Positions 4,638-58,960 of a stretch of 64,000 bases of DNA are shown here, one piece after another. Made by a program: the position numbers and the translations under genes. Under the pieces are notes generated by a model. The model searched no databases. It was not told the DNA's origin and saw only the letters and a list, made by a program, of their open reading frames with translations. Source of the DNA: Echinostoma caproni (Eukaryota; Platyhelminthes; Trematoda; Plagiorchiida; Echinostomatidae); the NCBI GenBank assembly GCA_900618425.1, contig UZAN01039718.1:13703-77702 (forward strand), written 5' to 3'. Numbering within the stretch: position 1 is the first letter of the stretch; each line of letters begins with the position of its first letter.

Positions 4638-4800
4638 TCGACCGTGTAGCTCAGGGGTAGGTGTTTGATGCCCCGATCCGAAGGTTCGCGGTTCGAGTTC
4701 CGGCAGGGACAGAAAACAAAGTAAGCACTGTTGACGAGTCCCAAACAGAACAAAACAGCTGTCGGTTATCACAAACATTTCCATCGCATTTAAAAGAAAT
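4638..4800 (+). mobile_element. tRNA-derived SINE with hammerhead-ribozyme remnant, copy 1
   Basis: The head is tRNA-like, with an A box at 4645-4661 (TGTAGCTCAGGGGTAGG) and a B box at 4690-4701 (GGTTCGAGTTCC). These form a type 2 RNA polymerase III promoter. Thirty bases on, at 4726-4770, is a hammerhead-like core: 'ttgacgagtcc', then 'caaacag', then 'aacaaaac', followed by AGCTGTC. Stem III (ACA/TGT around GC) pairs well. The core is damaged: CTGA is now TTGA and GAAA is CAAA. The 3' strand of stem I is deleted. The body continues 'ttatcacaaacatttcc', shared with the copies at 39.8, 40.1 and 23.9 kb. This resembles the schistosome Sm-alpha ribozyme SINEs. Confidence 0.75.
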
Positions 4801-5410
4801 CTGAATCCTTTAAAAGTCTGCAGTATGATTGCGTAGAGCTTGATGTGATCCACAAAATATCTGCTATCATTGCTAACACACCAGATTTCGGCAGAAGACA
4901 ACTCAACCACATTGTAAAGAAATCTGGAGCTTGATGCTGTCATGTTGGATATCTTATTTATTTGCTAAAAACTGCTCTCCTCGTTGGATAATATGAAAAC
5001 TCGCTCAAAGCCTGTTGGATATTAAAAAGAATATCGTTCATTCGAACACCAATTTCGCGGACAAAAGGCCTGTGTTCTAGTGGATTAGTTTTCTGTTTTT
5101 TTTTAAATTGCTTTCACTCAATATATCATGTTTATTGTCGCATACATGGAAAAGTTAAATATCTTTTTTATATCCCATACAGATTATAGTGATCGCCCCG
5201 TTCGGTAAGTGAACCTGTTCAGTACCAGCGCTGCTTATAAAAGAATCGTTCTGGCAATTAACAATTGTCTTTTTCAATTGCAAATTAAACTGGAATTACT
5301 TAAGTTGTGTTGCAGTCTGATAAATAAACTGTTGGTTTTGTTTCTGCATAACCCGACTATGTGAAACTGCTTGGCTAATGGTATATCTAAAATGAAAAAC
5401 GATTCGATCA

Positions 5411-5590
5411 GTTGTCCGGTAGCCCAGTGGGTAGTACGCATGCGTTCTACCTGCAAGATCCCGGATTCGATCCCCATTTGGGTCGATGGACTTACACTGT
5501 TGATGAGATCCAACCAGGTGGAAACAGCTGTTTAGTGCTTCCCAGCTTTTGAGTTCACGCCTCGTCTATACAACGAATTCATCATGTAAC
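5411..5590 (+). mobile_element. tRNA-derived SINE with hammerhead-like core, copy 2 (subfamily B)
   Basis: The tRNA-like head has an A box at 5418-5434 (GGTAGCCCAGTGGGTAG) and a B box at 5463-5475 (GGATTCGATCCCC). A hammerhead-like segment follows at 5494-5538: 'acactg', then 'ttgatgag', a short stem II around 'atccaaccaggt', then 'ggaaac', and a stem III of ACA/TGT. Stem I can partly pair ('cact' with 'agtg'). The end contains 'cgaattcatcatgtaa', which also appears in the 6.9-kb piece, so these two form a second SINE subfamily. The core has a C-to-T change at its first base, so activity is doubtful. Confidence 0.7.
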
Positions 5591-6604
5591 CAAATATCCA
5601 TTGTATTAGGATTGTAGACAAATAGACCTACTTACATTTTATGCTGTAAACTAGGACAGATTCAAAACATTTGCTTTCCCGTATAGGTTGATTGATATTT
5701 ACACTTCAGACAGGCAAAAGGAATGACAATTTATTTCTTCTGAACCATTTCGACTGGCTGGTCTTTATTCAGACTTCACTGTCACGCACAAAACTCGGAC
5801 GATTCAGTCAAGCGTGCACTCTCTCATTTTAGACTCAATCTGATTTGCCTATTCGCAGGCCCCTTCGAGCCCTTTGATCCCAAAGAGAAAGGCGTGAGTT
5901 TGTCGATTGAACTGAGGAAGACATATTGAAGACATATAATGAAAGATAGCCAAACAAGCCCATCATACAGCATCATTCATAAATAGTGACGAATCAAGTT
6001 CAAATGTCGGCGGAATGCTTTACACAAACTAGAGTAGGCAGTCATTAACAGCTGATATCGTTAACTGTGGAACGATGAGAACCCACACAATAACTATCAT
6101 TTTCGCAAAACATCACAATGTGTATGAATAAATATACGCGAATGAAAACGCGATAGATCGAACGGATAAAACACAAGCCAGAAATGCTCAACTTGCTTTT
6201 ATCCCAATGCTCATGCTCTGTCGGATAATTTCAATCCGCTTGTGATAGAGGCCCGTTTCTTGATTCGATCAAAAACCAATACTGGGGCTCATGGTAATAT
6301 TATTTGCTCGCGAGCTGTGATCAAATTTAGATAAGCTTCCACATGACGTGTTAAATCATATTCCAAACAAGCTACCTTTCTTCAAGTTCCGATTTGGTCT
6401 AAGAGGCAAGCCATAAGGCTGTCGTTTACCAAAAACACCTCCACGCATGCATGAACACATGACAGAAAACTGCTAACGTTATTAGGTAAATGTATTTATG
6501 TGGGGGCACATTTTCGTTGACATAAAAGAGAGAACGTGTGCATTTAACCAAATATTTCGTTTCTCTTTTCTTTTATACGATCAAATGATCGTGTAAACTA
6601 AGTT

Positions 6605-6765
6605 TGAATTAAAAATTGTGAAGTAATGAGTAACTGTTTGGACCTGATTGGGTCTCACCAGCAGTGCGAATTCATCGATCTAAATGGGGATCGAACCCGA
6701 AAGCGCACAAAAAGAAAGCAAGCATACATCTCGCTCGACCATCAGGCAGCTGATCAGACCACTTT
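6605..6765 (-). mobile_element. tRNA-derived SINE with degraded hammerhead, copy 3
   Basis: Read on the minus strand, this has a B box (GGGTTCGATCCCC, plus-strand 6686-6698) followed by 'gcactg' and a core of CTGGTGA, stem II GACC/GGTC around 'caatca', then CAAAC. Stem II pairs perfectly. Both catalytic blocks carry one change each (CTGATGA to CTGGTGA, GAAA to CAAA), so it should be inactive. An A-box-like stretch lies near 6745-6765. The body beyond the ribozyme is short. Confidence 0.6.
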
Positions 6766-6837
6766 TCATTTTAAATGTACACGATATAGTACAACCCATC
6801 TCTGCGAGGTTGTTGCAGACATCGCGTGTCTCTGATC

Positions 6838-6985
6838 TGATCACTAGCCACTGGGGTTCTAATTCAGTTGGGAACTTTCACAATCTGACTATATGTTGCA
6901 TGAGAGCATTGGGGGATTTGATTTCTTCATACGATGAATTCGTCGTGTAAATGAGGTGCCAGCTGAAAAACTGAGAACTGAATAG
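6838..6985 (+). mobile_element. SINE 3' tail fragment
   Basis: This segment shares 'acgatgaattcgtcgtgtaa' with the end of the 5.4-kb SINE. It then ends in 'ctgaaaaactgagaactgaa', resembling the ACTGAA units of the RTE tails in this window. I infer a 3' SINE tail that copies the RTE end, so RTE machinery could mobilise it. No tRNA-like head is visible next to it on this strand. Confidence 0.45.
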
Positions 6986-9900
6986 ATGTTTTCACTGGGT
7001 GTCGTCTCATGACGTGTGCAGAGCGCTTGATCAGTATTTATTCCTTCTAAACTAGGGGACCACTATTTTAGTGATGGTACATATTCATGAACGTGTTAAA
7101 GTATTTCCGCAGAGAAGAGAAGAGAAGAGAAGAGAAGAAGTGAAGAGAAGCGTTTAATCAGAATTATTTCTATACTCATTACTTTTGTGTATTTTACAAA
7201 ACTTAAAAGTGCTATCAGACACCTGGCAAAGATTGGAGTGGAAAAGTGAAAAATCACTGAATAAAAAATTGAAAAATATTTCTGTCGCTCATGAGTTCAA
7301 ACCACAAATTGGTAAAGCTCATTGAAAATTAAATAATTGCTTCGGAAACCAATAATTATTCTCAGTACAAGCCTCTTGTTTATACCGCATAGTTTTGCGT
7401 GCTCTTCTATCTCACAGACACTGTCCCATACTAGATTCGGTATCCTCAGCAGATGTGCTAAATTGAAGCTGCTAACACAACCAATATACTAGAATGAGAC
7501 TGGCGAAATATATGCGTGACCAAAATAATTGTTTATCGTCTCAACATTGAAGTGATCAGAAGACAATCATACAACAAATTTGGTTAATGGTACAGAATGT
7601 GGAGCCGAGTACATGAATTGAATGTGAACCATTTTCAGTTCACAGATTCTTGGATAGAGTGATTAACCACTTTACGGTGCAATTGAATTTCCAGTCATGG
7701 GGTTTCTATGTTCACGGAAAATTTTGTTCAATATGTGGTTGGATACACAACAATATCAAACGTGAGCAATTTGTAGGTTCGATCACTACCGTATCTTACT
7801 GAGATTCTCGGATTCCAAGCTCAAAAAACCTCTTTCAAACCGCGCCACGTTGAATACCAAACTCCCGATGAGTATATGTAGAATTGTTTCGGGCATTAGC
7901 TCTATCCCTATCCTCAGAATATGCCTCCAAATGGGGAGCCAATAATCAATACTTTGAGGACTACCTCAAACTTGCAAAACAAAACAACATTTGGCTTGAT
8001 ACCCTTGTGAAATGACTTCAGAGAATAGTAAATCTGTAGTACATGCATGTGCATTGCCTGAGCTAGTAACTCATCGGTTTCGAAGCTAGCATGAAAACTC
8101 TAGTTTACAAAGAATCAACTATTCGTTCACGGTGTCAAATGAAAACATTTACGCATGAAGAAATAGTCAATGAATAAGTTAATGTTAAAATAATTTTGAA
8201 ACGGTTATTATAAGACGACAGACGTGCTGTATCAATATCTCCTTTGAAACCATGATAACTAATTGCAAACTACGAACATATTCACCTTAGGATCGGTACA
8301 CCTTACTCCATCATTGAGAATGTGTAATCATTAATTACACCCAGTAGACAAGACACACACGAGTCGGAGTTTACTGAAACACGAGTATTCTCTACTTTGA
8401 TTAACTGCAAACCGATAATTTTATAAATCAGTCTACATGGGTTGGACGTCAAACACTATGTGAACTGGACAACCTAGGACGACATTTGTAGTTAGATATA
8501 GTGTTGCGCAATCTCTGAAATAATTCTAATATTCCTTAGGTGCATTAGCAAATGGTGTGCATTTTCCGGTGTTTTTGACTCGATCACTCTGCACAAATAT
8601 GACCCTGTCATTCTTTTTGTTAATTTAGACGCTTGTAAAGAAGTCTTCACTTTAACTAACAGTTACTTTCACGTTCCGAGTGTCCTCGTGGGAATTTATC
8701 TGAGAGGTGAAATATAACATGGAATCCAAATGCTTTTTTACATAGAATACTATTAAGTGTTCCGAACGTTGCCTACCAGCCAACGCTGCTTGATTGTAGG
8801 ATTAATCATCGTTGAGAGCGAATCAGGTCATAGTAATTATCGTTCAAATCAAGCAACTTTTGTTGTTAGCAATGGATCATTGAGGCGATACTTGTTCATT
8901 AGATTGTGAACTCACCACCGTTTGATGCCGATCAAAGTGATACCACGCAATAATGCAAACTTAGTGTCCAAACATAGACAATAAATTAGAGAATTTGTTT
9001 TCTGCTTAGTTTAGCTAGTAAACATTTTTATATATTCTTTTCTATTGCGTTTATATTGCAAACAGATAAGGCAATTGGCTGACAACTAAAGTGAGTAAAA
9101 ATTGGTTGAGAGAGTATTTACAGACAGCGATTACTATCACACGATTATGGATTAAAAACACATAAGAATACCTAGTTGTGGTACACAACGCCTTCGCATA
9201 TGTAATGTTTTCATTTATCCAGTAAATTAGTTCCATACTAATTTTTACCTTCACCAGTGGCATATTAAAGGTAGTACTGAATTTTTATTTTAGCTGCCAC
9301 GATCCAAACAGTCAAGCAGATGGGATTTTATCGATTAGTGCATTAAGAAGATTGTGGTGAAAAACCTACGAACCGTAATTCCGTGCCCGAAGAAAGCTAT
9401 CCCACCTCCTAATGCCTAATCACAATAATGATCCCATTTATTTGAACCTATTTTGGTTCTGCTTTCCAAATCTCATTTCTTTGATTCTCTACAATTATGC
9501 GATCTCTTCGAGAAGCTTAGTTTTGATGCGATCATGCAGCGAATATGATCCTCAAAACCGAATGATCGTAAAGCAAAGCACATTGGTGAGTCTGATCAGA
9601 CTTTCCGGTTGTACATTTTCTGTGAATTAAGAAGTAAGTAGCGAATGAAACGATGCCGTCTTCGATTTTACATGCATTATACTTGTACAACTACACGTTC
9701 CGACAAACAGTGGTGGACCGGATTGAGGTACAGGAACAGTTGCATAGGAAATTTCATTGATTTCCCGCACCGTTCTTGTTTGAAGTTGGTCAGAGAACCG
9801 CAAACGCGCCCCACGTTATCACTGAATTACAGCTGACCGCATTTTGGGTGTAGATTTCACCCAGACAGCATCCCCACATACTCAGATTACTAAATCAATC

Positions 9901-11109: not shown

Positions 11110-11129
11110 TATACAGACAGCACTGAACA

Positions 11130-11564
11130 TTGTTCGGATACGGTAACGCTTGTGTTGCTTTAATTGAGGCAATCCCTGTTGAGACATTGCAATGCTCATT
11201 GAGCAATAAACCCATTCAGGTCGGTTACTTAAGACGATTTTCTAATACTGTAGTAACACAATTCGCCAGTTTTATTGACCAGTCCTTGTGTATTGCTGCT
11301 GGTGACTTTAATCGTTTTGATACCTCCTTTCTAACCACTCTAGGCTTAGAAAACCATGTCAATTTTTCAACCCGTACCAATGTCTTTCTCGATGGTATTT
11401 ATGTATATAGTCCCAATATGGTTCACGTTTTTGAACGAGCCCCAATTAGCACTTCTGACCACCGTACCATTATTCTTTACCCCAAAATATTTTGTAAAAC
11501 TAATCAGTTACTTCATACACAACCCACCTATCGTACGCTATTGGAAAAGAAATTGTTCTCCTGA
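11130..11564 (+). pseudogene. CR1-like endonuclease domain remnant
   Basis: A frame of 144 codons holding the C-terminal half of an apurinic/apyrimidinic-type endonuclease, the enzyme that nicks target DNA so that RT can prime. Visible landmarks are GDFN at residues 58-61, 'FLDGIYV' near residue 87 and SDHR at 109-112. The last is the catalytic Ser-Asp-His signature of this fold. The N-terminal half, with its Asn and Glu metal ligands, is missing or degraded upstream. Another copy of the GDFN region lies at 53.9 kb. The frame ends well before the RT, so the protein is not continuous. Confidence 0.75.
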
Positions 11565-12065
11565 AAACTTGTCCCGACTGCGGAACTCAGTTTCTTCCAC
11601 TACATTTTCTGTGTTCTTCCATAACCAGCTGTCTTCTTCTTGTGAACACCTTACCGTTTATCTTAATTTCTGCTATGACCAATGCTGTCCGGTTGAAACT
11701 ATTTATATTCGAACCGACAGGTGTTCCTCCCCCTTGCTTAGGCGACTTCGTCATGCTAAAGGGACGGCATAGATGGCCGGCAGGCGTCACAGTATCAAAG
11801 AGCTCTCTGTTCTGATTAAGACGCCGGAACGGGATGTACGTCGAGACTATTTTGGGCAATAAAAACTTTTGTGAGATGTGGACTACCTTGCGGAAACTCT
11901 GTGGCTCACGCATCAGTTCTTGTCCGAACGTTGAGGAACTTAACCGTCAATTTGCTTCTGTACCTGCACCTAGCTCCCTCCCACCTCCTTTTACTAACCA
12001 TGATACAATTAACCCTGTTTCTCCGGACGAGGTCCTCCAAGTTTTGAGGAGATCCAAGGCCAATA

Positions 12066-12506
12066 NNNNNNNNNNNNNNNNNNNNNNNNNNNNNNNNNNN
12101 NNNNNNNNNNNNNNNNNNNNNNNNNNNNNNNNNNNNNNNNNNNNNNNNNNNNNNNNNNNNNNNNNNNNNNNNNNNNNNNNNNNNNNNNNNNNNNNNNNNN
12201 NNNNNNNNNNNNNNNNNNNNNNNNNNNNNNNNNNNNNNNNNNNNNNNNNNNNNNNNNNNNNNNNNNNNNNNNNNNNNNNNNNNNNNNNNNNNNNNNNNNN
12301 NNNNNNNNNNNNNNNNNNNNNNNNNNNNNNNNNNNNNNNNNNNNNNNNNNNNNNNNNNNNNNNNNNNNNNNNNNNNNNNNNNNNNNNNNNNNNNNNNNNN
12401 NNNNNNNNNNNNNNNNNNNNNNNNNNNNNNNNNNNNNNNNNNNNNNNNNNNNNNNNNNNNNNNNNNNNNNNNNNNNNNNNNNNNNNNNNNNNNNNNNNNN
12501 NNNNNN
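12066..12506. other. Assembly gap (Ns) inside CR1-like RT
   Basis: A run of Ns between the endonuclease-RT linker and the RT fingers of the CR1-like copy. Gaps at high-copy repeats are common in short-read assemblies. Translations spanning it are meaningless. Confidence 0.95.
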
Positions 12507-13765
12507 GAATTGTTTAGTACTTGTTTGTCATCTGGAACGATCCCCAACTGTTGGGGGTCAGCCTGAATCAGACCAATCCCAAAGAAAGGATCGTCAAAGT
12601 ACCGTCCTATTGTCCGCACATCTGTGTTGCCGAAGGTTTTTGAAAATGTTATGCTGCACCGCATGATACCCCAGTGTAACTCCCATTACCTTTTACAATT
12701 TGCTTATAAACCCCGTTTATCCACACTTGACACCGTTGATCATATTGTTCATTCTGTTGCTTCTGTCTTGGACAATGGCACTGGAACCACTCGTTTAACT
12801 TTTCTTGACTATACAAACGCTTTTGGTTCTCTCGATCGAAGACTGCTGATTGAACGCCTTTCTGAGTGTGGTCTAACTCCTGAAGTCTTGGATGTACTAA
12901 TCGACTACTTCACTTCACGACTTCTTCACTCACTGGTGTACAATCTTCTGCTATTACCATTGAAGTCGATGTTTTTCAGGGTGCCATTTTGTCCCCTTTC
13001 TTGTTTTCTACGTATATACAAAATCTCCCCATTCCAATCAACTTTATTGCTTGTAAGTATGCTGATAATATTGTGATTCGTTGCCCAGCCTCTATTTCAG
13101 ACAGTTTTCGACCTCTCCAGGACAGTCTTAATGAACTTCACGATTGACCTGTGACCCGATCCCTTGTACTTAACATCAGTAAGTGCATTGAAGTTCCATT
13201 TTGTCTTAAAACCGGTTCCCGTTATTTTTCATTAGTTACTCATCTCCCTAATCTTAGAGTGAACAATCAAAGCATTCCAAAATCTGCATCTGTTAAATGA
13301 CTTGGTGTCACCCTAACCCATAACCTGTCCTGGTCTGCTCATTTCATCGACGTTTTCACGAAAGTTCGAAAACTGTCTTTCTATGCCTACAGACTCAGGA
13401 AACTGGCCGTATCACATAATATTATACTTAAATTTGTGATTGCTTGCATTCTTCCACACTGACTATACAGCTCCCCGATTTTGATCCCTGGACTGAAAAA
13501 AATCTCTTTATTTTCGAGATCCCCTAAACCTTTTTCCCACTACAGTGGAGTTGATAGAGTTGTTTTAGTTGATTTATTTATTTCCAAGCACTTTGACGCT
13601 TGTGATACATTCATTGACAGGATAACGCATTGTCAAGGGCACTGTCTGCACCAAGATATCGCGAAATCCCTGTCAAATCCCCGAACACGATCCAAATATC
13701 AACTCCATTCTGCGCGGACTTCCAGATATCGAAACAGTGTAATTCCATATTTAGCTGTTTTTTAG
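12507..13765 (+). pseudogene. CR1-like reverse transcriptase remnant
   Basis: RT palm and thumb in several frames. From 12624 a 150-codon frame carries the fingers (QFAYKP...STLDTVDH) and box A (FLDYTNAFGSLDRR), where the first catalytic Asp is kept. The frame then shifts before box C, 'VFQGAILSPFLF'. The catalytic YADD box reads YADN at 13058-13069, a loss of the second Asp (GAT to AAT). After it come the primer-grip and thumb, with 'LGVTLTHNLSWSAHF' and 'FYAYRLRKLA'. In-frame stops interrupt it at about 13147 and 13298. The protein would have copied the element's RNA at the nicked target; it cannot do so now. Confidence 0.8.
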
Positions 13766-15839: not shown

Positions 15840-15849
15840 CAGCAAACAG

Positions 15850-18039: not shown

Positions 18040-18420
18040 GGCGTGTAATGCATGTGAAATCTTTAAATGGCTCCGGGACCAGGGTAATCACGGACGCCCT
18101 GGCCCCACGTGCAGGCTTGCTTCTGCACTCTGGAGGGTTGAGGCCTGCAACGATCTCTAATCGGGCTGGCTTAAGTGTGTAAGTTTTGCCAGCGGGGGGG
18201 GGTCTTCAAACCATCCCTAGTAGGGCAGTGGTGGCCAGGTGGTTAGGTCACCAACTTGTGCCCTGTTAGTCCCGAGTTCGAATCTCTTTACCGCCACTCG
18301 TGTTCCTAATTTCTGTATTCTCCCAGGCAGCCTGTGTATGGCCGCGGCCCTCCTTCCTGAATGTTGACTGTACAGTTTTGTATTCAATAATTTAAAAAGA
18401 AGTAAAAAGACTATTATTAT
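18040..18420 (+). mobile_element. tRNA-derived SINE, third family
   Basis: A GC-rich block (18060-18200) is followed by a tRNA-like unit with an A box at 18230-18247 (GGTGGCCAGGTGGTTAGG) and a B box at 18274-18286 (GAGTTCGAATCTC). Flanking 'ggtgg' and 'ccgccac' could form an acceptor-like stem. After the tRNA-like part come 'cccaggcagcctg' and an AT-rich tail that passes into a (TTA)n run. I read this as a SINE with a simple-repeat tail. The GC-rich leader may belong to it or to another repeat. Confidence 0.55.
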
Positions 18421-23837: not shown

Positions 23838-23915
23838 GCTATAAATTCAGGTGGAAATGTTCGTCATAATAGAAAAAGAGTACTGGGCAGCTGTTTCGTC
23901 CTGTCTGGGATGTTA
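23838..23915 (-). mobile_element. SINE fragment with half hammerhead core
   Basis: On the minus strand this reads 'cccagacaggacgaaacag', the second half of the SINE hammerhead (stem II 3' strand, GAAAC). After it come 'ctgcccagtact' (stem III and stem I 3' strand) and 'ttatgacgaacatttcc', the same body as the 4.6- and 40-kb copies. The first half, including CTGANGA, is replaced by unrelated sequence, so it cannot cleave itself. Confidence 0.6.
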
Positions 23916-24239: not shown

Positions 24240-25465
24240 ATCGACTGAACTGCCTTGTTCCCGAATTTGTACAACACATGGTCAGTGCAAAGGAGAAAAG
24301 TAACAATCTCACAGCACGTTTACTGTGCCAATGCATGGTAACTTTGCGTGCGTGGGAAACAACTGAGAAGTGCAAAGTGATCGACACTTTTGGGATGAGT
24401 GCGTGTGTAACAGCAGCTGACAAAATTTGCTTCCGCTTTGGCTAAAATACCACATCGAACTTTTTCTTGATAGTCGACGACGAACCTGATACAGGGAACG
24501 GAATGCCTCGGTCACATTCACAGTGTGATTTGTTTCACATAGGTGTGAAACCACTGTACTAATCAGTGAGTGACTTAATCGTTCCTATGTTTAGCCATGC
24601 GGCTTGGTGTTCACGGATTGGTTTAGACAAACACCTTACCGTGCGGCCTATGTACATTGTTCCCCAGGAACACATAAATGAGTACACACAAAATGAGACG
24701 GCAAAATCCGGCAATTTATCGTAAACACACCATTGGCTGGGACGTGAACAAAACATTGAGCTTTGCTACGTAGAGGGTATTACTAACTATATCAGATAGT
24801 TTCCTTTGTATTACCTCTGCAGATCTGTCCTCTCTGAACGGCAAGATAGTGTACGCCGACTTCTTTCGGACCTCAGTCTTCTTCACAATATCTCCACTGC
24901 ATTGAATCATCATGTTAACCAGTCGTTCTTGATAACCATTATGTGTGAAGATAGTACACAAGAACCGGAGCTCTTCTTCTATTGTGTCCTCACTGCAAAT
25001 TTTCCATGCACTATCTGTTAGGCAGCGCACTAAATTTCTCTTCACTTTGAGCAGTACAAAGCTGCGAAAATGAATATATTGGCCCATCCAAGTCGCCTTT
25101 CTATGCGCTAATCGTTGCACTGAGCTTTCCGACCAATGAACTCAGTTGGACGTCTAGAAATGTCAGTTTGATGTCGTTTCCCATTTCTCATGTGAATCTT
25201 ATGTTCTGGTGAGCAGCACTGAATTTGCTCATTTGCTCGTTTGTTCCTAATGTCTTGCTGACCACATGCAGAATATCATCCACATGTTGTGTGCATAACA
25301 CACAATCCTGAATGGAAGATTTGAGTTGGTTATTTTTTCAAGTTTCGCCATGAACACATCCACGGATATGTTGCCGATGTGTTCATGGCGAAACTCGAAA
25401 ATAACCAACTCCAATTTTCCATTCCGGATTGTGTGCTGTTCACACGACCCCCCTCTTTGTGCTCA
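24240..25465 (-). mobile_element. Penelope-like element B, RT thumb and GIY-YIG endonuclease
   Basis: On the minus strand an RT C-terminal region runs from about 25395: 'VFMAKLE', a degraded catalytic region, then 'KATWMGQYIHFRSFVLL', 'KRNLVRCL' and an 'EEELRFLCTIF' block (25120-24716). A GIY-YIG nuclease follows, with 'CSWGTMYIGRTVRCL' at about 24670-24625, where YIGRT is intact at 24654-24640. After it comes 'REHQAAWL', and in another frame 'VVSHLCETNHTVNVTEAF' (24554-24480). The nuclease is frameshifted between these halves. RT box A lies outside the recognisable part. It sits about 600 bases from PLE A, in the opposite direction. Confidence 0.8.
25289..25445. repeat. Long inverted repeat (about 70-bp arms, 15-base loop)
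   Basis: The left arm is 25289-25360 and the right arm 25376-25445. The right arm is the reverse complement of the left with about nine mismatches and a small indel. The shared core 'gttcatggcgaaact' encodes the PLE 'VFMAKLE' segment in both directions. This is therefore a fold-back of the PLE's own RT sequence at the 5' end of PLE B, not an independent element. Confidence 0.85.
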
Positions 25466-28944: not shown

Positions 28945-30599
28945 AATGTAGTTAAACGTTTGAGAATATCTGAAGGAAACAATTGTCAAAAAGGGATACA
29001 AAAATGAAAGATTATTATAACCGTAATAACACAAAATAATATAATTCAAGAAGGAGAATTCAGCTCTCGGGGAAATGTGTTTTCTGTTTTGAGTCCAACT
29101 GTGACCCGAACCGGAATATTTGTCACATTATTGTGGGCCTCTTGATTGTTATTATCGATGGGGCCTAGTCAGAAATGATGAGCAATATCGTGCATTCATG
29201 TTAAACTCCTGAATTACCACTTAGATGATGAATGAACGAGTGGTGACACATGTGTTTGATGCTCGGCTAGTCCCGGGATTCACTCGGCCGGAATGTACAA
29301 ATGTATCTTGGCTTACGATAAGATCAAGAGTCATTTATAATGTTCACCTACTATTCACTTCATATGTTTATCGCTATCTAAAAGAATAACTTCACTGAAG
29401 TATCAGTGAAGAACCAGATGCTTATCGTTAGGCTGACGTTGCGAGTGATGCTAATGATGCTGATGATGAAGGGGAAAGGGATGACAACGTTGGAAGGAAG
29501 CAAACCATTTTTAGGCCATGAAACAAATTAAAGAGGAACAAACAAACACAGGGAGTAGCATATAACACAACCTACACGTTTGTCAGACTAATCTGTCAAC
29601 AATAACAACAACAACAATGTGCCCAATTCAATTTCGCTTGTTTGAAACGGTAATCGGATACCTTTCACAAAAACAATGAGCTGTCCACATTACAAATTGT
29701 TTTTCTCATCTGTTTCAGATGAAAAGGGGTCAAATTACTTGGAAACGTCGCACCCCTCCTTCCCGTTCCTCACTGAGATGCGATGTGATCTCGTCTGAGC
29801 TGTCCCAGCCTTCTGACTCAACATCCACTACCCACCGCAGAAAATTGTGGATGACACGGTGGGGTAAGAAAACAAATTTTGCATTAGATTTCCCATTCAC
29901 ATAACCCAATGAAAATAAGCGGAAATAAACTATAGACAAATTAGAACTAGAACGTTGTTTCTGTTCCGTTATTAACTCATTATTCATTTACTACGTTTAT
30001 TCCTTCTTTACATTAATCGAGATCAAAATGAGAAAGCGCTGATGATAATAATCCATCAGTTGTCTGGCTATCCGGTTCTTAGACTAAAACATGACATGCT
30101 TGACTGAAACAGATGTTGAACTGTTAACACCTGTGCTCGTTCCTAGAGGCCAGGCAAAATGAAATTACAGATAGTTATTCTCTTCTTTGGTGGCGTATGG
30201 ATCAATCATTACTCGTTGGATGATCAGTTCTCATCTCGGTGAAGTGAGTAAATCAGTTAGGTGAATAGAAAAGTGAAAACTGGTGGGGTACCCATAAACC
30301 TTCCGTCCATGGTACAAATCGATCAACAGAGCTGAGGAACGAATTCGAAATCTGAGGCACAGCGGCAGCCAGCTGTTTCACTCACTTGAACAAATGAAAA
30401 CCGTTCAATTTTATCGAATATTTCATACGCAAAATTTGTTTGAAAATTGACATGCCCCTGCTCATCCTCAATGAACTCAGCTTTGCCCAATGGAATAGTG
30501 ACCGACTTCCTCGGGTGGGTCCCAATCGGGACCTAATCGTGGCCTACAAACAGATAGTTTCCAGTAGGCAAAAGGCTGAAAATACAACTAGGTTGGACT
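28945..30599. other. Mostly no gene; one exon-like segment
   Basis: AT-rich sequence with a (CAA)n-like tract near 29600-29617. The only stretch that looks exonic is listed separately at 29719-29863. The last part (30440-30600) may be the decayed 5' portion of the CR1-like element that follows. Confidence 0.45.
29719..29863 (+). CDS. Candidate internal exon of an unknown gene
   Basis: A stretch of 145 bases begins after a strong acceptor-like signal ('catctgtttcag') and ends at a strong donor-like signal ('GGGGTAAGAA'). One frame is open throughout and gives a basic, Ser/Thr-rich peptide of 48 residues with 'WKRRTPPSRSSLRCD' and 'THRRKLWMTRW'. It is clearly GC-richer than its flanks, and I see no second copy in the window. 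There is no recognisable domain. Intron phase would be 0 on entry and 1 on exit. It could equally be a chance open stretch, or part of an unrecognised repeat. Confidence 0.25.
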
Positions 30600-30605
30600 T
30601 CGGTC

Positions 30606-31259
30606 GTGTCTGCCATGATGTTGTGTCGACGGCTTTACAATCATTACCAACTTATACTTAGCTCCCTTTTTACCCAGTCTCACATTTCATCCTTCTTCAA
30701 TGCATTTATTTCGTCTTTCGTTCCCCTCTTAGGCGACAGTCTTCACATCATTGTTGGTGACTTTATTCATGCAACCCCCTATCCCATGACCTCTTTTGGC
30801 CTAACCGATAGTTGCTCATCCCCCGTAAGATGTGATTCATTTTTAGACAAAGTAATTACTAACCACCCAGAACATTTTGTCCTAAAACTTACAGCATCTA
30901 TTCTCATTAGTGATCATGCACTGATTCTCATAAGACCCATAGTGTACTCCCATCCCATTCACAATACACTCACAAGAACCAACCAAATCACAATTCTCTC
31001 CCCAAGAAACACCCTACCTCTTGATCGTTCCATCAGTGTCATTGCTTCGTGGTTGTCTTCATATCCCTCTTTACGCAACGCAGTCAACTTATTGACTAAA
31101 ACACTTAAACACACGTTTAACCTATGCTGCCCTTTTGAAACTACATTTGTTTGTAACGGTAAAATAGAATCTCCACAGCTGAAACTATTCAGAAGGAACA
31201 GAAGGAACGATCGTACAAATCCGGAAACTCAGCGGCTGTCAAGCATTACACCGACTTGA
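30606..31259 (+). pseudogene. CR1-like endonuclease domain remnant
   Basis: A frame of 217 codons contains 'LHIIVGDFIHATPY' (residues about 46-59) and 'ISDHALILIRPI' (101-112). These correspond to the GDFN and SDHR signatures of the AP-type endonuclease of non-LTR retrotransposons. The Asn of GDFN, which helps bind metal and phosphate, is Ile here. The N-terminal part of the fold is not recognisable. After residue 120 the frame is a Ser/Thr-rich linker toward the RT. Confidence 0.7.
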
Positions 31260-31349
31260 TCAAAGCTGAAATCAAACGCCTCTCTGCCTCTTACGCCTCC
31301 CAGCTTCTACTATGTAACAACAGTAAGCGAAATTGGCAAATTTGTCAAA

Positions 31350-32075
31350 TTGCTGTGTGGGACCAAATCCAAAATGTCGGATTGTACAACGGATTTGGAC
31401 AGTGTTAGTACCGCATTTATCCACCTATCAAACGATGGCAGCAAGCTATTTGCTCTGGATGATGCCGTTCAAGTAGAGGCCGTCTCGAAAGAAGAAACTT
31501 TTGAGCTTCTGCGTACCGTGAAAACCATGTGCAGTGTTGGTCCCCATGGTCGTTTATCTTCCCTTCTGAGATATGAGGCCTATTCTCTCAGTTTAATATT
31601 TACTTCATCTTTGAACAATTCCTTAAAAACCTGCTCCATACCAGACTGTTGGAAATCAGTATCAACTGTTCCCATTACCAAATCCTCTACTTCAAACGTT
31701 TTAACCAAACATTTTCGTCCTATCGCTCTAACCTCTGTTCGACTTAACCCAACAGAACGTGTTGGCCATACATGCATTCAATTCTCACTTAATGTCCCGT
31801 ATGGTTCTCTTCTGTTTGCTTATAAACCAAACAGATGCACGGTATATAAAGTTTTCTTTCCTTTACATAATATTACGAAATACTTGAACGGCTCTGCGAA
31901 ATCTGTCCGTTGTGTGTTTCTGGACTACTCATCTGCTTTCCATTCTATTCCGCGCTCCCTTCTTCTTCGTATACTGGAGACCTTTGCTTGTTCTAGACAG
32001 TTATTAGCTTGGCTTGCCGATTACTTCTCCGGGAGAACTCAGTGTACCAGGTTGGGTCGGAAGAAATCCAACCAT
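31350..32075 (+). pseudogene. CR1-like reverse transcriptase remnant
   Basis: The open frame runs until the N gap. Recognisable RT segments are 'IPDCWKSVSTVPITKS' (residues 97-112), 'HFRPIALTS' (121-129), 'LLFAYKPNRCTVYKV' (about 154-168), box A 'VFLDYSSAFHSI' (189-200, from about 31914) and 'WLADYFSGRTQCTRLG'. The spacing matches RT subdomains 0, 1, 2 and 3. The catalytic YADD block would fall in the gap. Upstream the frame is separated from the endonuclease by stops. The function in an active element is copying its RNA at the target site. Confidence 0.8.
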
Positions 32076-39045: not shown

Positions 39046-39741
39046 CACAGACATTTGTGCACTTGATGGTCTGTCGATGTTTTAACACCCAGCTTGTAAG
39101 CTCTCATCACTTATGAATGAATTGTTCAGCATGGGTTTGTCATCCGGAACGATACCCGATTATTGCAGGTCAACTCAGATTAGATCAATCGTGAAAAAGG
39201 ATAATTAAAATGCCATCGCACGATCTGCAAATCTACGTTACTGGGAGCTTCTACGTACGATATGCCCTCCGGCATAATAATTCCATGTGACTACCAAAAT
39301 TTCCTACAATTGGCCTACAAATGCAGTGCGACCACACTGGCCACTGATTCCTGTATTGTTCACTCTGTTGCATTTGTCTAATACAAAGATGCATGTATTG
39401 CTCTTCTGACATTTTTCATAATTCCAATACCAATCAGTGCTTGTTGAACTTCGTTTTTTGAGTGTTGTCTGACATTTGACAATTTGAAATGTTTTAATAG
39501 ACCAGTTCTCCTGTAGGACCTAGTTTACTTCGTTCAAAGTCACACAGTCCTCTTCGATAGATATCGATTCCGTGTTTTTCAAGGTGTCTATTTTGTCCGC
39601 TTTCTTATTCTCTGTGTACGTGGAGAATCTCCCAACTCCTCGTAACTTTATTGTCTACAAGTATGTTCATGATATTGTGATTGGTTGGCTATCCCCTAGT
39701 CCAAATTTTTTTCACCCTCCTCAAGGAAGACCTAGTTGATT

Positions 39742-39922
39742 TCATGGTTACATGCGATGGAAATGTTTGTGATAACCAACAAAGAGCACTGGATAGCGGT
39801 TTCGTCCTGTTTGCTGCTCGTCAGCAGTGCATACTATTTGTGTCCGGGTCAGGACTCGAAACAGCGATCTTTCGGATCGGGACATCAGACCTTTACCCCT
39901 GAGCTGCACGGTCAACGGTGAT
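39742..39922 (-). mobile_element. tRNA-derived SINE with near-complete hammerhead, copy 4
   Basis: On the minus strand an A box (GTGTAGCTCAGGGGTAAAGG, near 39914-39895) and a B box (GTTTCGAGTCCTG) precede a 45-base hammerhead at 39830-39786. Its stem I strands GCACTG and CAGTGC pair perfectly. CTGACGA and GAAAC are intact, and the cleavage site would be after TATC. Stem II is spoiled on its 5' side (GCAG instead of GTCC opposite GGAC). The body 'ttatcacaaacatttccatcgcatg' ends the unit. Catalytic residues are better kept here than in any other SINE copy of the window. Confidence 0.8.
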
Positions 39923-39982
39923 CACCTTGTGCGATTAGCTGCTTCAATTTTACGGTAGCATGCTTAGATTAGCCAAATCTAT

Positions 39983-40150
39983 TGTTAAGAGACACCAGGC
40001 ACTTATGATGGTCTGATGAGTCCCAAATAGAAAGAAACAGCTATCCAGTGTTTTTTGTTGGTTATCACAAACATTTCCTTCGCATGTAAATGCATTAACT
40101 TCTGAGGAGTAAACGATCTCCCAAGCAGTGAAACCCTCAACCAAGACCAC
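39983..40150 (+). mobile_element. SINE 3' part with hammerhead core, copy 5
   Basis: CTGATGA (40013-40019), GTCC, 'caaatag' and GAAAC (40034-40038) are followed by 'agctatccagtg' and the SINE body 'ttatcacaaacatttccttc'. The tRNA-like head is missing. An extra eight bases separate 'cacttatg' from the core, so stem I is displaced. Stem II is GTCC against AAAG, so unpaired. This copy shares the body end 'gtaaacgatctcccaa' / 'agcagtgaaac' with the 58.7-kb SINE. Confidence 0.7.
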
Positions 40151-40264
40151 CAAGCGTGCCTGTTGCCTCTTAACCATTGGATGGGCTAATACAAGCTTAC
40201 TACAGTAAACACGAATCCAAGATTAGTCCATTGATAAGGTATTGAGAATCGGTTCTCGTAGCTC

Positions 40265-40330
40265 GGGTGAACTGGATTCCATTTCGCTTGTTCGCCGAGC
40301 TTGGCAATTTGTGTGCAAACGTTCCGTTCG
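40265..40330 (-). ncRNA. PLE-type hammerhead, 3' half, inverted
   Basis: On the minus strand this reads 'aacgtttgcacacaaattgc', 'caagctcggcgaacaa' and 'gcgaaatggaa'. That is the segment downstream of the GAAAC block in the PLE hammerheads at 40.4, 44.1 and 61.7 kb. The CTGATGA half is absent. It faces the complete copy at 40400-40490 head to head, about 70 bases apart. Confidence 0.55.
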
Positions 40331-40399: not shown

Positions 40400-40490
40400 T
40401 TCCATTTCACAAGCTCTGATGATATCACCTCAGCTGGTGATAATACGTTTGCAAACAAATTGCCAAGCTCGGCGAACAGGCGAAATGGAA
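40400..40490 (+). ncRNA. PLE-type hammerhead ribozyme remnant with long stem I
   Basis: CTGATGA at 40416-40422 and stem II ATCACC/GGTGAT around 'tcagct' are intact. The next block reads AATAC where GAAAC is expected, which should abolish cleavage. A nine-base perfect stem I forms between TTCCATTTC (40400-40408) and GAAATGGAA (40482-40490). Between them is 'gtttgcaaac', a small palindrome in the stem III position. Hammerheads of this kind are known in the terminal repeats of Penelope-like elements. Confidence 0.65.
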
Positions 40491-44214: not shown

Positions 44215-47200
44215 CAGACAGTTCATTCAGTGGCTTCAGGCACTTTAATCGGACAAAAAATTGTCTAAAACTCTTTTATCGTAGTTGCAAAGTCGGAATC
44301 GGATCCTGCCGAGGAGTTGCGCGTGCATCCAGCAGTCGAGCACTGATCGGTTAGTATCGGGTGTAGTTTTCAACAATAGTGAGGAGTGAGAGGTAGATGC
44401 CATCTGGCGCTGACATGTACAAATCAGCTGAAAGCCAGCCCGTCCTGCCCGGGTTCAAATCTCAGTGAATTCGAGAAGTACACATAGTGAATGTGATTCT
44501 CTCCAAAAAGATAAAACAGTTGTACAGTTCTTCTAAGGAGATTCAACTTTTTTTGAAGATGATGAACAGTTCTCAATAAAATAGCCTCAATCTCATTAAA
44601 TGATCTCAATTACCCTTTCAATCAATGGACAATCATACAACCAAATTTTACACGAGGAAAGCGTTTAATTCATAGGCTGCTATTGGTATTTAGACAAACG
44701 GTCGGCCAGGAGTATTACGACCTCCAGGGTAGTGTGATGATCACGATTACCGCTTATGCGCAGTCAATGTTGACTTCTCAAGAAAAATCACTTTCTGAAA
44801 ATGTTTGGTATTCAGGAAAATCCTCTGCATTGGTCTCTATTAGAATTTCACGAATACAATTGTTAGTATATTTGAAGACAGTACAAAAAATGTTTATTCA
44901 TGGAATATAATAATGGAAAATGTCGGTGATACCGTTTTCTGATCTCTGGCCTGCAAGGGAATCCACAATCAGACCGGAAAGAACAATGACTATACATACA
45001 CACAATTTGTATATGAATCGCATGCGCAGCGTTAAATCACACATCAGACACGATTTATCGGCCTGATCTAATCCTCTTATAACCCACTAAGTTTGCCAAA
45101 AGTCGAACAATGGATAAGGAAGGCAATCGAAGCACATCAATCCCCTGAGCGCCGAGAAGTGTCCAAACCGGACAGGTTTAATCCGCTTTGAGCATTACGG
45201 CCGCTCCGTCGACCGTACCACGTGACTTGCCAAGTTTTGATCAGACGGTCAAATGCAGTGCGTTGAGGAGTTGTAAAAGTAAGCTAAAATTAGAACAGGT
45301 TTCTTTGTTTGTTTCTCGTTCCGTTGGACGTGATTTCGAAAGTAGCAAAGCGGATTTCAGATGTTAAAATGTATGCATGATCCTATCGACTAGATAACAT
45401 TCAAATGGCGGTTAACTTTTCGGAGGTAAATTAAAATTATCTTTTCGTAAGATACGAACAGCGGAAAGTATTTATTTCCTATCCTAACGCAGAATGTTGG
45501 TTGTTTCTCTTTCAAGAACTCCTCCGAGCACCGAGTACTAATGGGGTTTTTGTAAGCAGTGAGTTGCATGATCAAAATGGACATTATGATTAAAACTCAG
45601 TCACAGACCATTAAACCGAGGCAGTGAGTGTTAGGAAAAGCCCATTTCAGCGGGAAAATCATTGCGTCTTCAGGGTATACTACTCAATTTTACTTTCATA
45701 TTTTACTCAACTGTCACTTTTGACCGCAAGAAACTAACGCGTCCATCAGTAGCCTTACTGACGCATTAGATCCTTAGCGAAGCGGCTTATGGCATGTGAA
45801 GACATCTACTTCGTGTTGTGTGTGTTTGTGTTGTGTTGGGCGAGACTTATTTTCCAACCCAACAAGGTTTAAGTAAGTCTGCCTAACGGGTGCGCATGAA
45901 ACCGGCAATCAAAATCACTGGAATAATGGATGATCTGCTAGTGAGCCACGGGTAATAAACTACTAACACATACTGTTGCATTGTAGTGTGCACGCGGCTG
46001 GTCAAACGTTATAAGGCTATCCTCCTCGATAAAGGCCGATGACAACGGGGACACCTTTTGCAATAAACTGCGAAGATTGCATATGAGCCTCGTGTAGCCA
46101 GCTGTAGAGAATTGAAATCATTTAACGCACATCCAGATCCATAGATAGAATGTCAACCAGTTGAACCAAATTCACCCGTCATCTCTTTTGTTACTTTCCA
46201 CCTTAAAGGAGAATTGAAAGTTTAGGAAAAAGGGGTTTTCTCTCACAAGTGTTCTTTCATGAATAATGAACATTGTTTCAGCTAGACAAGTAACTGTGAA
46301 ACACATATTAGTGAGCTTTCTCACGTTCAACCTAGGAGTATGGAGATCTTGGCGTTTTGGTAGGGATTGCAGGAGTTTCGGTAACGGTCAAGAAAGTTTG
46401 CATAGTTTCGTTGACAATGAACAGAGAAGTATCCAATTCATCGGCAGTTCATACAGCCTGTGTTGAGCTTTTAGCACCCAATCTAATCACGTGACATTTC
46501 TACAAGTAATCCATGTGCCTCAGTGTGTGTGCATTATTCCACGCACGCTGTTTTCTATTGTGGCCAGATCCAAGTTTAACGCGTTATCCAGTCTCCTCTC
46601 TGCTTGGAAAAAAGTACATTTGTAGAGCCCATTGGATGAACAAAACCAGAAAGTCAATCGATAACCGGCTCAAACCACTCATTGGTTTGATATTTTAGGG
46701 TTTTACCACGGAAATTCCCATGATTTTCCTCGATCCAGTGAACCAAGTAACTCAATGGTCATTGATTATTTCGAATCACGGATATGAAAGTATATTATTA
46801 AAGAGCNTAACAAATTTACTTGAGATAGGAACTACGAATGAACGCATCCCTACAAAACACGGTATGCGCACTGAGGGTACTGAACGCTCGAGCAGTTAAT
46901 GATATTAGTTACTTTCGTTTCTATTTGTAGAAGCTGACTTCCACAAAGATCTTGGCTTTACTGAGGATAAACTTCCATTCTGGAGATATCAGTGATGTTA
47001 GGGATTTTACAGNGTGAATCAACAAAGACCTTGTTTCGTTTTTCTGAATCCGTAAGTTCCCGTTCATGGATGCGTTGTGCCAACTCTCGGTCGATGTACC
47101 TTTCCTCCGAATATTAATGGTAAATCAGTTGAGCGGAAGTAAAACCAATCATAATTTATCTACTGTTCCAAATGAGACATGTGTATATAAAAACTACATA

Positions 47201-53165: not shown

Positions 53166-53569
53166 TTGGAATTAATGCGTAAAGGTAGGATGTTCGAATT
53201 CATTCAGACATTCGCTAACATCGGATATTACTCCGCCATTTTTGAGTGGAAAATTTCTCGACATTCATTCAATTTGAAGGTCAAATGATATCCTGCGGTC
53301 TCACACTTTTGAAATCTTCGTATTTTCTCGCACGTGAACAATAATCGTTCTGTTTTTCGCATTGTCTGTGAGAAATCGCTACAACCGATTGCGGAATTAG
53401 AGACACGGAATGGAAATAAAACATTGTTCTACTTGGAAGATCACTCTTAACCGGCATGCCATCAACGGACGGACTGTACTAGTTATTATTTTCAGTAAGA
53501 CCCGTTCATTCATTGGGAAAAGTCGATGACGGCAATAGCTGGATACATGAGAACGTGTGCAAAAGCGCT

Positions 53570-54010: not shown

Positions 54011-54399
54011 GACGGTAATTTCTACTAACCCGTCTTCCTGCATTTCTTTCCCGGTTTGAAATAAAATACTTTCATATTTATTTCCAGATCCATCAAACTC
54101 CTTTCACGTAGGAGTGATGAAACCATCCGTGTTCTGCTTAATTTTATCGTGTGCCAGCATATGACAGAATTGTGAATAGAACCTTGAACAACAAAGATCA
54201 CTGCTTGCACAACGAACCTGTGAACTTTGTGTCCTCCCCCCATCAGTCCTAAGTACCTGCTCTCATTATAAGCTCCTTTTTGCAACGGTAGCAGTACATA
54301 CGGTAACAGTATTTTTAGTAAACCGAGCACTAATTATTGCAGGTATGGTCTAATATCTCTAGAATAGCGTAGACTGTTTTTTTCTAAACTTTTGGATCT
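54011..54399. other. No gene recognised
   Basis: A short AT-rich stretch between the CR1 endonuclease fragment and the next PLE part. A 101-codon minus-strand frame (54025-54330) resembles nothing known. Confidence 0.4.
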
Positions 54400-55275: not shown

Positions 55276-58200
55276 GTCATACTCGATACCATCCCGTCAT
55301 AATGGGTGACATGATCTGTCTCCACCTTCCTCCATCACATTTATCACATTCATCGTTTGGACTCGTTCACATCCGTATAACTTGACCTCAACTCCTGACC
55401 AAACNGTTTACAGCTGAATGAAAGCTCGCGAAACTGATGACCAATATCAATTCTGCACCACATATATCTTTTTGTGTTGATGAAAAGCATAAAGGGTAAA
55501 AGATTGTTTCATATACCCTTGTGTTTTACTTCTTATTTTCACTGTATTTGCGTCCAAAATGCTAAAGATTAACCGTTTTGGGTGCACAAAGCATATTTTG
55601 ATATAAGACAACAAGAAAGACTCGCCAAGCATACGTTTAGAGTCACTTTACAGTTTGTTGAAATAACTAACAATTTGGGCATTTACAAGCGACTGATTTT
55701 CTCCTTGGATGTTCTTTCCGTGGGCATTCCAGTCACAAATCGCATAGATCTACAACTCATGCGCAAACAAAACGCCCAATTTTGTTTATTAACACATTCT
55801 AGTGGTGTTTATATGGTTTCGGCCCTTGAATCTGTTCTTGCATATGAATTCATGTCCGAATGTGAGATAACTTCCTTATCCACCATATTACAGTCACGTA
55901 GATCTGCCTGATGGAAAAGAACACCAGCTACGACCATTATGAGTCAGTCTTCTTGTGTTGATAAGATGGTTCGTTTCTGTACATCCGTGACATTTGTGGC
56001 CGACTTTTTTGGGAGTTCACGCAAATCGGAGTCACTTCAGAGGTTTACATATACATATACAGTAGAATTAATAAACTCTTTCCATAAGCTTTTCGCACAT
56101 GATCAAACCGATCAATAAAATAGAAACACCGTTCAACGAACCAACCGGGATAAATTTTCGGCGGTTTGAATTGCACAGCTTATTTTCTTTAATCGAAACA
56201 TCTACATACCATGGACCGAGTTGTGCGACCACACACCAGTACTGACAACACCAAAATGATCAAGAGTGTAGGCAAACCGGAAAAAAAATTGATTCAACAC
56301 TGTTCTCTTTTTCAACGGACAGAACACTCCAATTTTGTTCACAAAACCAATGATTGTTATTCTGTCTTTCTCTCTCTCAGTATTTCAGCTATCAGTCGAT
56401 CATCTAAAGACAACACACTGCTCGTCGTCTCCCTGAAAGAAAAAAACACTATTGTTTACTATTCCCCCGCGAGTTCAAATTAATTGAGTCCGCCCAAGTG
56501 AACAGACGCGGATAGTTGGTTGATGGTTGGTTCATTAAACCCCACTGTATGATTGATTAGAACAGCTCAGTTTGCGCAATGCAATCGTGTGTGTGTGTGT
56601 GCATGCATGCCTTCGTGCTTGCATTGGATGCACATGGATATTCGGGAAACGATGCGTCCACATTTTGTGCACCGGCGGATGGGCCCGGATCGTTCCCGGT
56701 TTTTCATCNTCTCCGCCGTCTTCGGCAAAGATTTAGTTGCGTCAGTTCAAAGGATCCTTTGCAGGATGAACCTAAACAGTTGAATTGTTAGCAAACAGCC
56801 GTGGATGAATAAAAAGGTATTCGGCAGATCACCTGGAAGGAATCAACACTCAGAAGAGGTCCCGTATTCGCGAGATGTTCCACCATGACATCGGAGATGG
56901 TTTTGCTGTTCCCGGTAATCAGTGGAGGAATTTATTGAAAACGAGCTTGTTCGCCATTTGGCGATCTAGATACAGGTGAAACCAATCACTCACAGAACTC
57001 CAGGCTCCTTTGCAATCCATGATGGCAGATGTTTAAAGAGATTCATTCACAATTTACCTTCAACATTCTGAAGTCAAACAGTGTACTCATGAATATCGAT
57101 AACGAATTAGTCGCAAAAATTACAAATTCGCGACTTCAACATCCAAAGCTTCCAGTAAACAAACAATTTCGGATAGATTTTTGATCAGGTAATAACTGTA
57201 TACAAACGGGCAGTGTACTTCTCGTTACACAGAAACCACAGTGGCTGACTTTTGCAAATAAGTGGGATATTGATGACCTGATTCATAATTCATTATTTGT
57301 CATCCAGTCTGTACAATCAAATCGAAAGCAGCTGTTGAATCTGAGTCTACCAAAAAGTGAAACACTCTCCCAATATTGTCCTTAGAATGAATGCAAGCAA
57401 ATCGAGGAATCGAGAGAGAGATAACAGAGTCTGATAAATCCACTGAACCTCGTCTCGCTTCAGTACACCTTACTGGGTTTTGGTCTGCTGAAAATCTCTT
57501 GAGCTCAGTTCAGGACATGATGGTCCTTGTACACGTAGAGCGCTTGTATTCGGAGCACTGCAGGCTTAAACAATATCCCAATTGGTCACGTCGAGCCGGT
57601 TTGGTTATGAGACCAAAGTCCCTTATTAGTCTGTTCTCTGCACCCGTTACGTTTCTTGAAATTAGACACACAAACACACACACGAACAAACTAGATTATC
57701 ACAGCAGCACAAAATGATTCAGCGAGCTAATGGAACTGTGAACTTTATAACTAATTCCACATAATCCCGAAGAAAGAGATTAGAAGTTCATTTTTCTGAA
57801 CAGGTCGACCGTTCTGGGGAAACCACGTCGGTCTCTCAGGCTTCAGGATGCATTTCGCCTCGGTTCTTGCACGCGGGGTTCCATGACCCAAGTTCCTTTG
57901 GTTGTCAAGTTCAATCAGGCGATTTCTTACTTCTCGTTACCCCATTTTTATTCTCAGATAGTCCTCTATCAAGCGGGGTCCGGTCTCCGTAAATTAATTT
58001 TGCTTTTATTCTGTTTGCGACGTGAATCAAATCTCAATTAATTTTAATCACAGAAAGCTTTCCAAAATTTTTTTTATTATGCTCAAAGAATACTAACTAC
58101 TGATACAATGACGACTTGTGTGGCTGGTGCATCAATAGAGACTTTCAAATGACACCGGCTTCAGCGAGTGTACCCGGAGCTCGAAAAGATGTTCCGTCTA

Positions 58201-58699
58201 AAGTAAACAAAGTTTCCAGTGTTTCTCACTCACTGTGCGACCTTCCTGGGGCTGACATTGGTTTCTTTCGAAAAGTGTTGTTCAAATACAAGAGTGATCG
58301 AAACGTGAGATGTGATCATCGATTCCTTACCTCAGTAAAGAGCAAGAATTGTTGTGACCCAGAATTCCACATACTTGAAGTTAAGTATGTATCTGCAGAC
58401 ATAGACAAACATTAAAAACAATGAAGAAATTATTTAGTGACTTCACTATCCCTTTTCATTAATTGTTTTGTAAAACAATTAATGTTCGTGATCTGGGGCC
58501 TCCTGTTTGACGAAAAATCAATCAGTAACTGCAAGCTGTTCGTCGGTAATGGTGGGTCGCTGAATCGATGCGGTAAAATGGGATATTCCAAACGGGACTG
58601 AACAATTTTCGGCGCAAAAAAATGAAAATTCATTCGCGACCGGTATGGAGAACAGGGGTTTCTACGCTGTGAACTGTAGTAAAGTATACTATAAATTAA
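55276..58699. other. No gene recognised
   Basis: AT-rich sequence with a (GT)n run at 56586-56602 and single Ns at 55405 and 56709. Frames of about 100 codons at 55582, 57391 and 58116 show no known domain. Confidence 0.5.
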
Positions 58700-58960
58700 C
58701 CACCAGGCCAGGGACAAGGGTTCGAATTCCCAAGTCCATTGCTCGCGGTTCGACTCCTGACGGGAACACATTAGGTGCGCACTGCTGACGAGTCCCACAC
58801 AGAACGAAACAACTGTTCCGTTGGCTCCGTGTCGGTCATCACAGATATTTTTCAGCATAATCAAAAGCAATTCATCTAGCGGGGGATGGGGAGTAAGGAT
58901 CTCCAAAGTAGTGAAACTCACACCGTGGAAACAGTCGAGTATATTGATACAAACACATTC
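58700..58960 (+). mobile_element. tRNA-derived SINE with hammerhead core, copy 6
   Basis: Two B-box-like sites occur, at 58718-58731 (GGGTTCGAATTCCC) and 58747-58759 (GGTTCGACTCCTG), so the tRNA-like head may be rearranged. The hammerhead starts at 58779 ('gcgcactg'), with CTGACGA at 58784-58790, GTCC, 'cacacag', AAC and GAAAC at 58805-58809, then stem III ACA/TGT. The core is intact and stem II has one mismatch. The stem I 3' strand is altered ('ttccgttg'). The body 'gtcatcacagatatttttc' and the end 'ggatctccaaagtagtgaaac' match the 40.1-kb copy. Confidence 0.75.

Follow-up and report, generated by a model that had tools for sequence, protein, structure and literature searches.

Hammerhead ribozymes carried by repeats are known from the Sm-alpha and Sj-alpha elements of Schistosoma mansoni and S. 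japonicum, in which counts of motif matches exceed 38,000 and 5,000, with a link to tRNA-Gln in S. mansoni (PMC2770079). The unit that represents Sm-alpha is 335 bp long, and its ribozyme is active and is inactivated by core mutations (PMC8490949). Animal retrozymes are made of tandem units of ~300 bp in which helix III consists of two pairs and a tetraloop; the account takes in platyhelminths in general terms and mentions one axolotl group in which helix II is weak (PMC7229834). As a rule these retrozymes have no tRNA part, the schistosome repeats with their full tRNA being the exception (PMC4918200). Minimal type I hammerheads also occur in Penelope-like elements and Terminons, which are autonomous and coding (PMC7229834).

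A 64,000-nt stretch of fluke DNA (contig UZAN01039718.1 of Echinostoma caproni, positions 13,703 to 77,702; hereafter the window) holds about nine worn-out copies of an element resembling a short interspersed nuclear element (SINE), with a tRNA-like start and hammerhead remains, which fall into two very different subfamilies. Very probably, they were left long ago by a non-autonomous retroelement of the Sm-alpha type and have decayed since; its two subfamilies would have units of about 321 and 352 nt. As part of that reading, and with the same high confidence, the element would combine a tRNA-like head, in which the A and B boxes lie, with a type I hammerhead 25-35 nt past the B box, followed by a short body without coding capacity. 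Among the matches listed in a literature search by title and abstract, with subscription journals outside its scope, no report of such elements from a non-schistosome fluke was found. The elements would represent an older, real new addition to the Sm-alpha kind, with moderate evidence for retrozyme-like units.

The likeness to Sm-alpha and Sj-alpha covers the tRNA-like part and the type I hammerhead, within units of ~335 bp in schistosomes (PMC8490949, PMC2770079). The first-pass annotation of this DNA had already likened the hammerhead to the Sm-alpha ribozyme, and indeed subfamily 1 agrees almost letter for letter with the consensus of Rfam family RF00163 over the core, stem II and loop II. 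That consensus presumably rests largely on schistosome sequences. In contrast to Sm-alpha and Sj-alpha, the stem III palindrome is ACAGCUGU here and ACGcgCGU in the Rfam consensus, and the family is split into two subfamilies that differ in head and body, present in this window as a few decayed copies. Features shared with the non-LTR (long terminal repeat) retrozymes of mussel, coral and axolotl are a type I hammerhead, a unit of ~300-350 nt and a short stem III with a palindromic tetraloop (PMC7229834), to which genomic sequence alone adds hints of a tandem or permuted order; those elements, as a rule, have no tRNA part, unlike the A/B-box head found here (PMC4918200). As in Penelope-like elements and Terminons, the type I hammerhead lies inside a retroelement, but the units here are short and carry A and B boxes, whereas those elements are autonomous and coding (PMC7229834).

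Copies, tRNA-like heads and hammerhead remnants

BLAST of the copies against the window places copies A (4.6 kb), D (39.9 kb, minus strand), E (40.0 kb, plus strand), F (23.9 kb, minus strand) and G (58.7 kb) in subfamily 1, and copies B (5.4 kb), C (6.7 kb, minus strand), C2 (7.0 kb, minus strand) and a weak one at 61.5 kb (H) in subfamily 2; both groups are confirmed by nhmmer profiles built from two rows each. Every location listed by the first-pass annotation (4.6, 5.4, 6.6, 23.9, 39.8/40.0 and 58.7 kb) was recovered by BLAST and profile matches. Its division into two subfamilies was also borne out; across them the bodies barely align. The piece C2 (7,020-6,928, minus strand), the weak copy H, the parts termed leader and X, and the head-to-head order of D and E are additions to that account.

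For the head, the consensus of the RNA polymerase III (Pol III) boxes was applied, as was the hammerhead numbering for the ribozyme, both in their generally known form. If no more than two mismatches are allowed over both boxes together, an A box with a B box is found at six distinct sites of the window, five of which are the five copies that retain the head region, while simulated windows contain 0.17 such sites on average and at most one (12 windows). Both boxes are present in 5/5 copies that retain the upstream part, in agreement with the proposed order of A box, B box and hammerhead. The earlier term 'tRNA-derived' stands as far as these boxes go and finds no match beyond them, since ARAGORN detects no tRNA genes in the window and no tRNA is among the Rfam matches listed. 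The sixth site is another tRNA-like SINE head (16090-15700, minus strand; A box 16077, B box 16024), with a GC-rich acceptor-like stem; no hammerhead was seen in it, and it has no second copy in the window.

The type I hammerhead proposed earlier is recognised by RF00163 in copy G, which scores 34.6 bits at 58,781-58,821 (plus strand) against a cut-off of 34 and is the only match above threshold. Below threshold lie A (29.6 bits, 4,732-4,763), B (26.4 bits, 5,494-5,538) and D (20.3 bits, 39,786-39,830, minus strand), with expectation values (E) of 1.3e-5, 1.2e-4 and 0.012 in a search restricted to these stretches. Eight stretches (at 4.7, 5.5, 6.6, 7.0, 23.9, 39.8, 40.0 and 58.8 kb) were combined into a ribozyme profile, which by construction recovers these eight at E 2e-17 to 8e-10; the next of its 20 matches up to E 5 lies at 44,489-44,541 (E 0.025). 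Stem III is of the short type, with two pairs and a self-complementary AGCU cap.

The bare pattern CTGANGA...GAAAC occurs five times in the window, 3/5 in copies, against a mean of 0.75 and a maximum of 5 in 200 simulated windows; for TGANGAG...AAACAGC there are four occurrences, three in copies, against a mean of 0.015 and a maximum of 1. The bare motif alone is weak evidence, and the layout common to the copies is the stronger. That the motifs are chance resemblances in unrelated repeats is next to impossible: a window of this kind should contain several matches to the loosest core patterns, but the constant position behind the A and B boxes, the Rfam match above threshold and the co-aligning flanks run counter to chance, and the layout refutes it in practice.

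Conservation and decay of the ribozyme

Comparison across the two subfamilies, with shuffled controls, sets the ribozyme apart. The 39-nt ribozyme stretch aligns with z of 8.4 to 13.1 in 6/6 pairs, a level reached by 0/400 shuffles, while z ranges from -0.3 to 0.8 for leaders (4 pairs), from -0.6 to 2.6 for bodies (6 pairs) and from -0.4 to 5.4 for heads (6 pairs; D-B 0/400 and A-B 3/400 shuffles); the test left out E, F, C2 and H, and its region borders were drawn after the motif had been seen. In addition, the subfamilies differ at pair 21-32 of stem II, where U-A stands in four rows from subfamily 1 and A-U in 3/3 rows from subfamily 2, one row being unpaired. This swap is a single event, yet it is what a working stem would predict. 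Because all six cross-comparisons stand out while leaders fail to align, bodies hardly do and heads do so only partially, and because of the swapped pair, the ribozyme seems to have been retained while the rest turned over between subfamilies, for which the evidence is good.

The shared hammerhead may also be viewed as a capture rather than as a product of selection, with two unrelated tRNA SINEs each acquiring one hammerhead module, or exchanging it by template switching. Such an origin would account for heads, leaders and bodies that align poorly or not at all across subfamilies. However, the D-B and A-B head comparisons do stand out, and the spacing between B box and ribozyme is similar in the two subfamilies, which suggests common descent; we consider two captures unlikely.

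Several observations weigh against the Sm-alpha-type reading. Within subfamilies, identities for core, head and body are 25/33, 69/87 and 39/41 for A-D, 28/33, 55/76 and 30/41 for A-G, and 24/33, 58/84 and 40/51 for D-G (subfamily 1), and 24/33, 61/88 and 39/62 for B-C (subfamily 2), so that the core is kept better than the head in 3/4 pairs and better than the body in 2/4, the flanks being favoured by free end gaps in their alignments. This pattern is the one that neutral decay of dead copies would be expected to leave. Pairing over the eight aligned rows equals that of shuffles (61.7% vs 61.6%), with a covariation score reached by 195/500 of them, and the window copies give no covariation signal beyond the one stem II pair; structures slid along the same alignment pair only 22-39%. 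None of seven copies scored for the core and twelve pairs is intact throughout (0/7; F was left out, as it is without the CTGANGA side). All core letters are kept in D, E and G, but their stems are broken, and A, B, C and C2 carry one to three core changes each. A base that makes a C-A mismatch sits in stem II of 3/5 subfamily 1 rows (A, E and G), and one source lineage may thus have had a weak stem II. Finally, the hammerhead is not the minimum-energy fold in any of five copies folded.

The same scoring finds each part intact in at least one copy, just as the first-pass annotation had described a family with no perfect copy and every catalytic part preserved somewhere. That annotation also thought active copies elsewhere in the genome probable, against which stands the damage in every copy scored here. 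The stem I that it gave, GCACTG with CAGTGC, is complete (6/6 pairs) only in D at 39.8 kb and imperfect in the other scored copies; in A its 3' arm is deleted, with a 14-nt gap relative to the 39.8-kb copy. Stem II is complete only in C, and stem III in A, B and G. When three merged 45-nt sequences were folded, two formed stem I (5 pairs) and stem II, a competing helix replacing stem III, and in the merged sequence with the A-E-G mismatch stem II did not form. Since 0/7 scored copies are intact and none of five folds as a hammerhead, the copies in the window probably no longer cut. The annotation had held that ribozyme function would be unsupported if, genome-wide, stems and cores were no better conserved than the flanking body, and had looked to compensatory changes among aligned copies. 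Among the window copies, the core surpasses its flanks between subfamilies and not consistently within one, and the compensatory change comes down to the one stem II pair.

These data also bear on the view that the elements are ordinary linear tRNA-headed SINEs with a once-acquired, passive hammerhead that played no role in their spread, odd piece orders being later rearrangements. Within subfamilies the ribozyme is indeed no better conserved than its flanks, as that view has it, but a passenger would be expected to decay as much as leader and body do, whereas the ribozyme remains alignable in 6/6 cross-subfamily pairs and shows a double change in a stem II pair. We regard a passive hammerhead as somewhat unlikely, its further support lying in the ends and order of the pieces.

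Order of the pieces and unit length

Upstream of the head, A and D stay homologous for another ~100 nt (71% over 111 nt, E 8e-13). This leader precedes the head in A and D but lies downstream of body and X in E, where it matches the D leader at 75.8% over 66 nt (E 1.6e-11). G continues from body into X as E does (81% over 37 nt, E 2e-5). The pieces of subfamily 1 close as a ring of head, ribozyme, body, X, leader and again head, with an inferred unit of 321 nt. For subfamily 2 a unit of 352 nt is deduced from C2, whose core has the same orientation as that of C and sits 352 nt upstream of it; the tails of the two recur at 354 nt. A, B, C and D end near a common TGTAA-like point, which E and G run past. 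Differing piece order, together with a shared end that E and G overrun, would be explained best by a tandem or circular template, an explanation that we favour slightly. Because the piece order suggests such templates, the picture of a plain linear SINE is probably incomplete.

On the other side of the balance, the link from X to leader is seen in one copy only, namely E; the head-to-head order of E and D (39.8/40.0 kb) could be the product of a local rearrangement, and an inverted leader piece also adjoins A. The subfamily 2 linker (6920-6781) has no second copy in the window and, compared directly, is unlike the X or leader of subfamily 1. Tandem Repeats Finder lists no array of such units in the window. 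Target-site duplications at the five copies tried are not convincing, with none of at least 7 nt for A and B, 7 nt for D and G and 9 nt for C, which is near chance. A search of the window for a shared 3' tail gave only weak, chance-level matches and no partner among long interspersed nuclear elements (LINEs). LINEs recognise the 3' tails of SINEs, and an end of A, B, C and D near one TGTAA-like point is what a LINE-recognised tail would produce; this and a D/E head-to-head order obtainable by rearrangement favour the passive-hammerhead view. An origin of A and D/E from one inverted-dimer source was also considered, as both have an inverted leader piece, and was rejected, for the pairwise identities of the four leaders group otherwise.

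Coordinates, neighbouring features and implications

Table 1. Positions of element copies and associated pieces in the window
Feature	Position	Strand	Details
Copy A, subfamily 1	4542..4804	+	leader 4542-4637, tRNA-like head 4638-4712, core 4731-4763, body to ~4794
Copy A boxes	A box 4647, B box 4690	+	
Inverted leader-like piece adjoining copy A	4476..4537	-	nhmmer E 4.7e-4; BLAST 75% over 52 nt, E 4e-5
Copy B, subfamily 2	5381..5589	+	leader 5381-5404, head 5405-5485, core 5500-5532, then body
Copy B boxes	A box 5420, B box 5464	+	
Copy C, subfamily 2	6573..6780	-	A box 6741, B box 6697, core 6661-6629, then body
Piece C2, subfamily 2	6928..7020	-	degenerate core 7013-6981 and body
Copy F, subfamily 1 fragment	23850..23909	-	ribozyme GAAAC side and body
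Copy D, subfamily 1	39737..40013	-	leader 40014-39949 onward to head, core 39824-39792, body to ~39748
Copy D boxes	A box 39906, B box 39862	-	
Copy E, subfamily 1	40013..40209	+	core 40013-40045, body to ~40090, X 40103-40139, leader copy 40144-40209
Candidate degenerate copy	44448..44541	+	nhmmer subfamily 2 E 0.028; ribozyme model E 0.025
Copy G, subfamily 1	58705..58922	+	head (B box 58747), core 58785-58817, body, X 58887-58922
Copy H, weak subfamily 2 remnant	61463..61612	+	nhmmer E 2.9e-6

Other repeats lie close to these copies. A 29-nt direct repeat (4775-4803 and 4898-4926, plus strand; 76%, last 11 nt identical) has one unit at the 3' end of copy A and the other past it. Two sites, 40276-40319 (plus strand) and 61772-61730 (minus strand), share a 44-nt repeat with 89% identity; together with an inverted pair near 40277-40300 and 40467-40490, they mark another repeat family beside the SINE copies. 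Elsewhere, a near-perfect inverted repeat of ~95 nt (25319-25413, minus strand) has weak microRNA-precursor scores and is probably a small inverted-repeat transposon. A sequence resembling U1 small nuclear RNA (18059-18220, plus strand) scores 62.3 bits against a cut-off of 69.5 and is perhaps a diverged copy or pseudogene. Two broken open reading frames (ORFs) resembling non-LTR reverse transcriptases (11127-13073 and 30558-32072, plus strand) are each split by a run of N; they match Pfam RVT_1 at 12.6 and 31.3 kb, and apart from these two a Pfam scan of 27 window ORFs gave nothing above cut-off. Of three protein searches, one gave a named match, an Echinostoma caproni protein at 66% over 31% of the query, another gave two unnamed proteins and the third nothing; with modest confidence, this points to a fluke that is perhaps not a schistosome. 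Exact ribozyme or body patterns had no matches in viral and prokaryotic contig collections, which carries little weight given those hosts.

Under the reading of an Sm-alpha-type retroelement, tandem units of the source elements would be transcribed by Pol III from the internal boxes, or by read-through. The hammerhead would cut 3' of base H17, which separates stem III from stem I, and yield unit-length RNA, as its structure and the activity of Sm-alpha suggest, and a tRNA ligase may then circularise this RNA, as published for other animal retrozymes. Linear, multimeric or circular RNA could be copied into the genome by a LINE or Penelope-like reverse transcriptase, and copies starting at different points of the unit would be the outcome, in keeping with the order of the pieces. 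A bolder view, which we hold to be less likely than not, is that the spread of a tRNA-headed element in flukes proceeds by way of circular or multimeric RNA that cuts itself, such that SINE and retrozyme would form one continuous kind, the hammerhead being the constant part kept as heads, leaders and bodies turned over, from before schistosomes split from other flukes.

As to the role of a hammerhead in a retroelement, two subfamilies that share little else argue that the ribozyme is needed for spread. The permuted order of the pieces would tie such SINEs to the retrozymes. If the host is not a schistosome, the layout of tRNA-like part plus hammerhead would be older and wider in flukes than the papers cited state.

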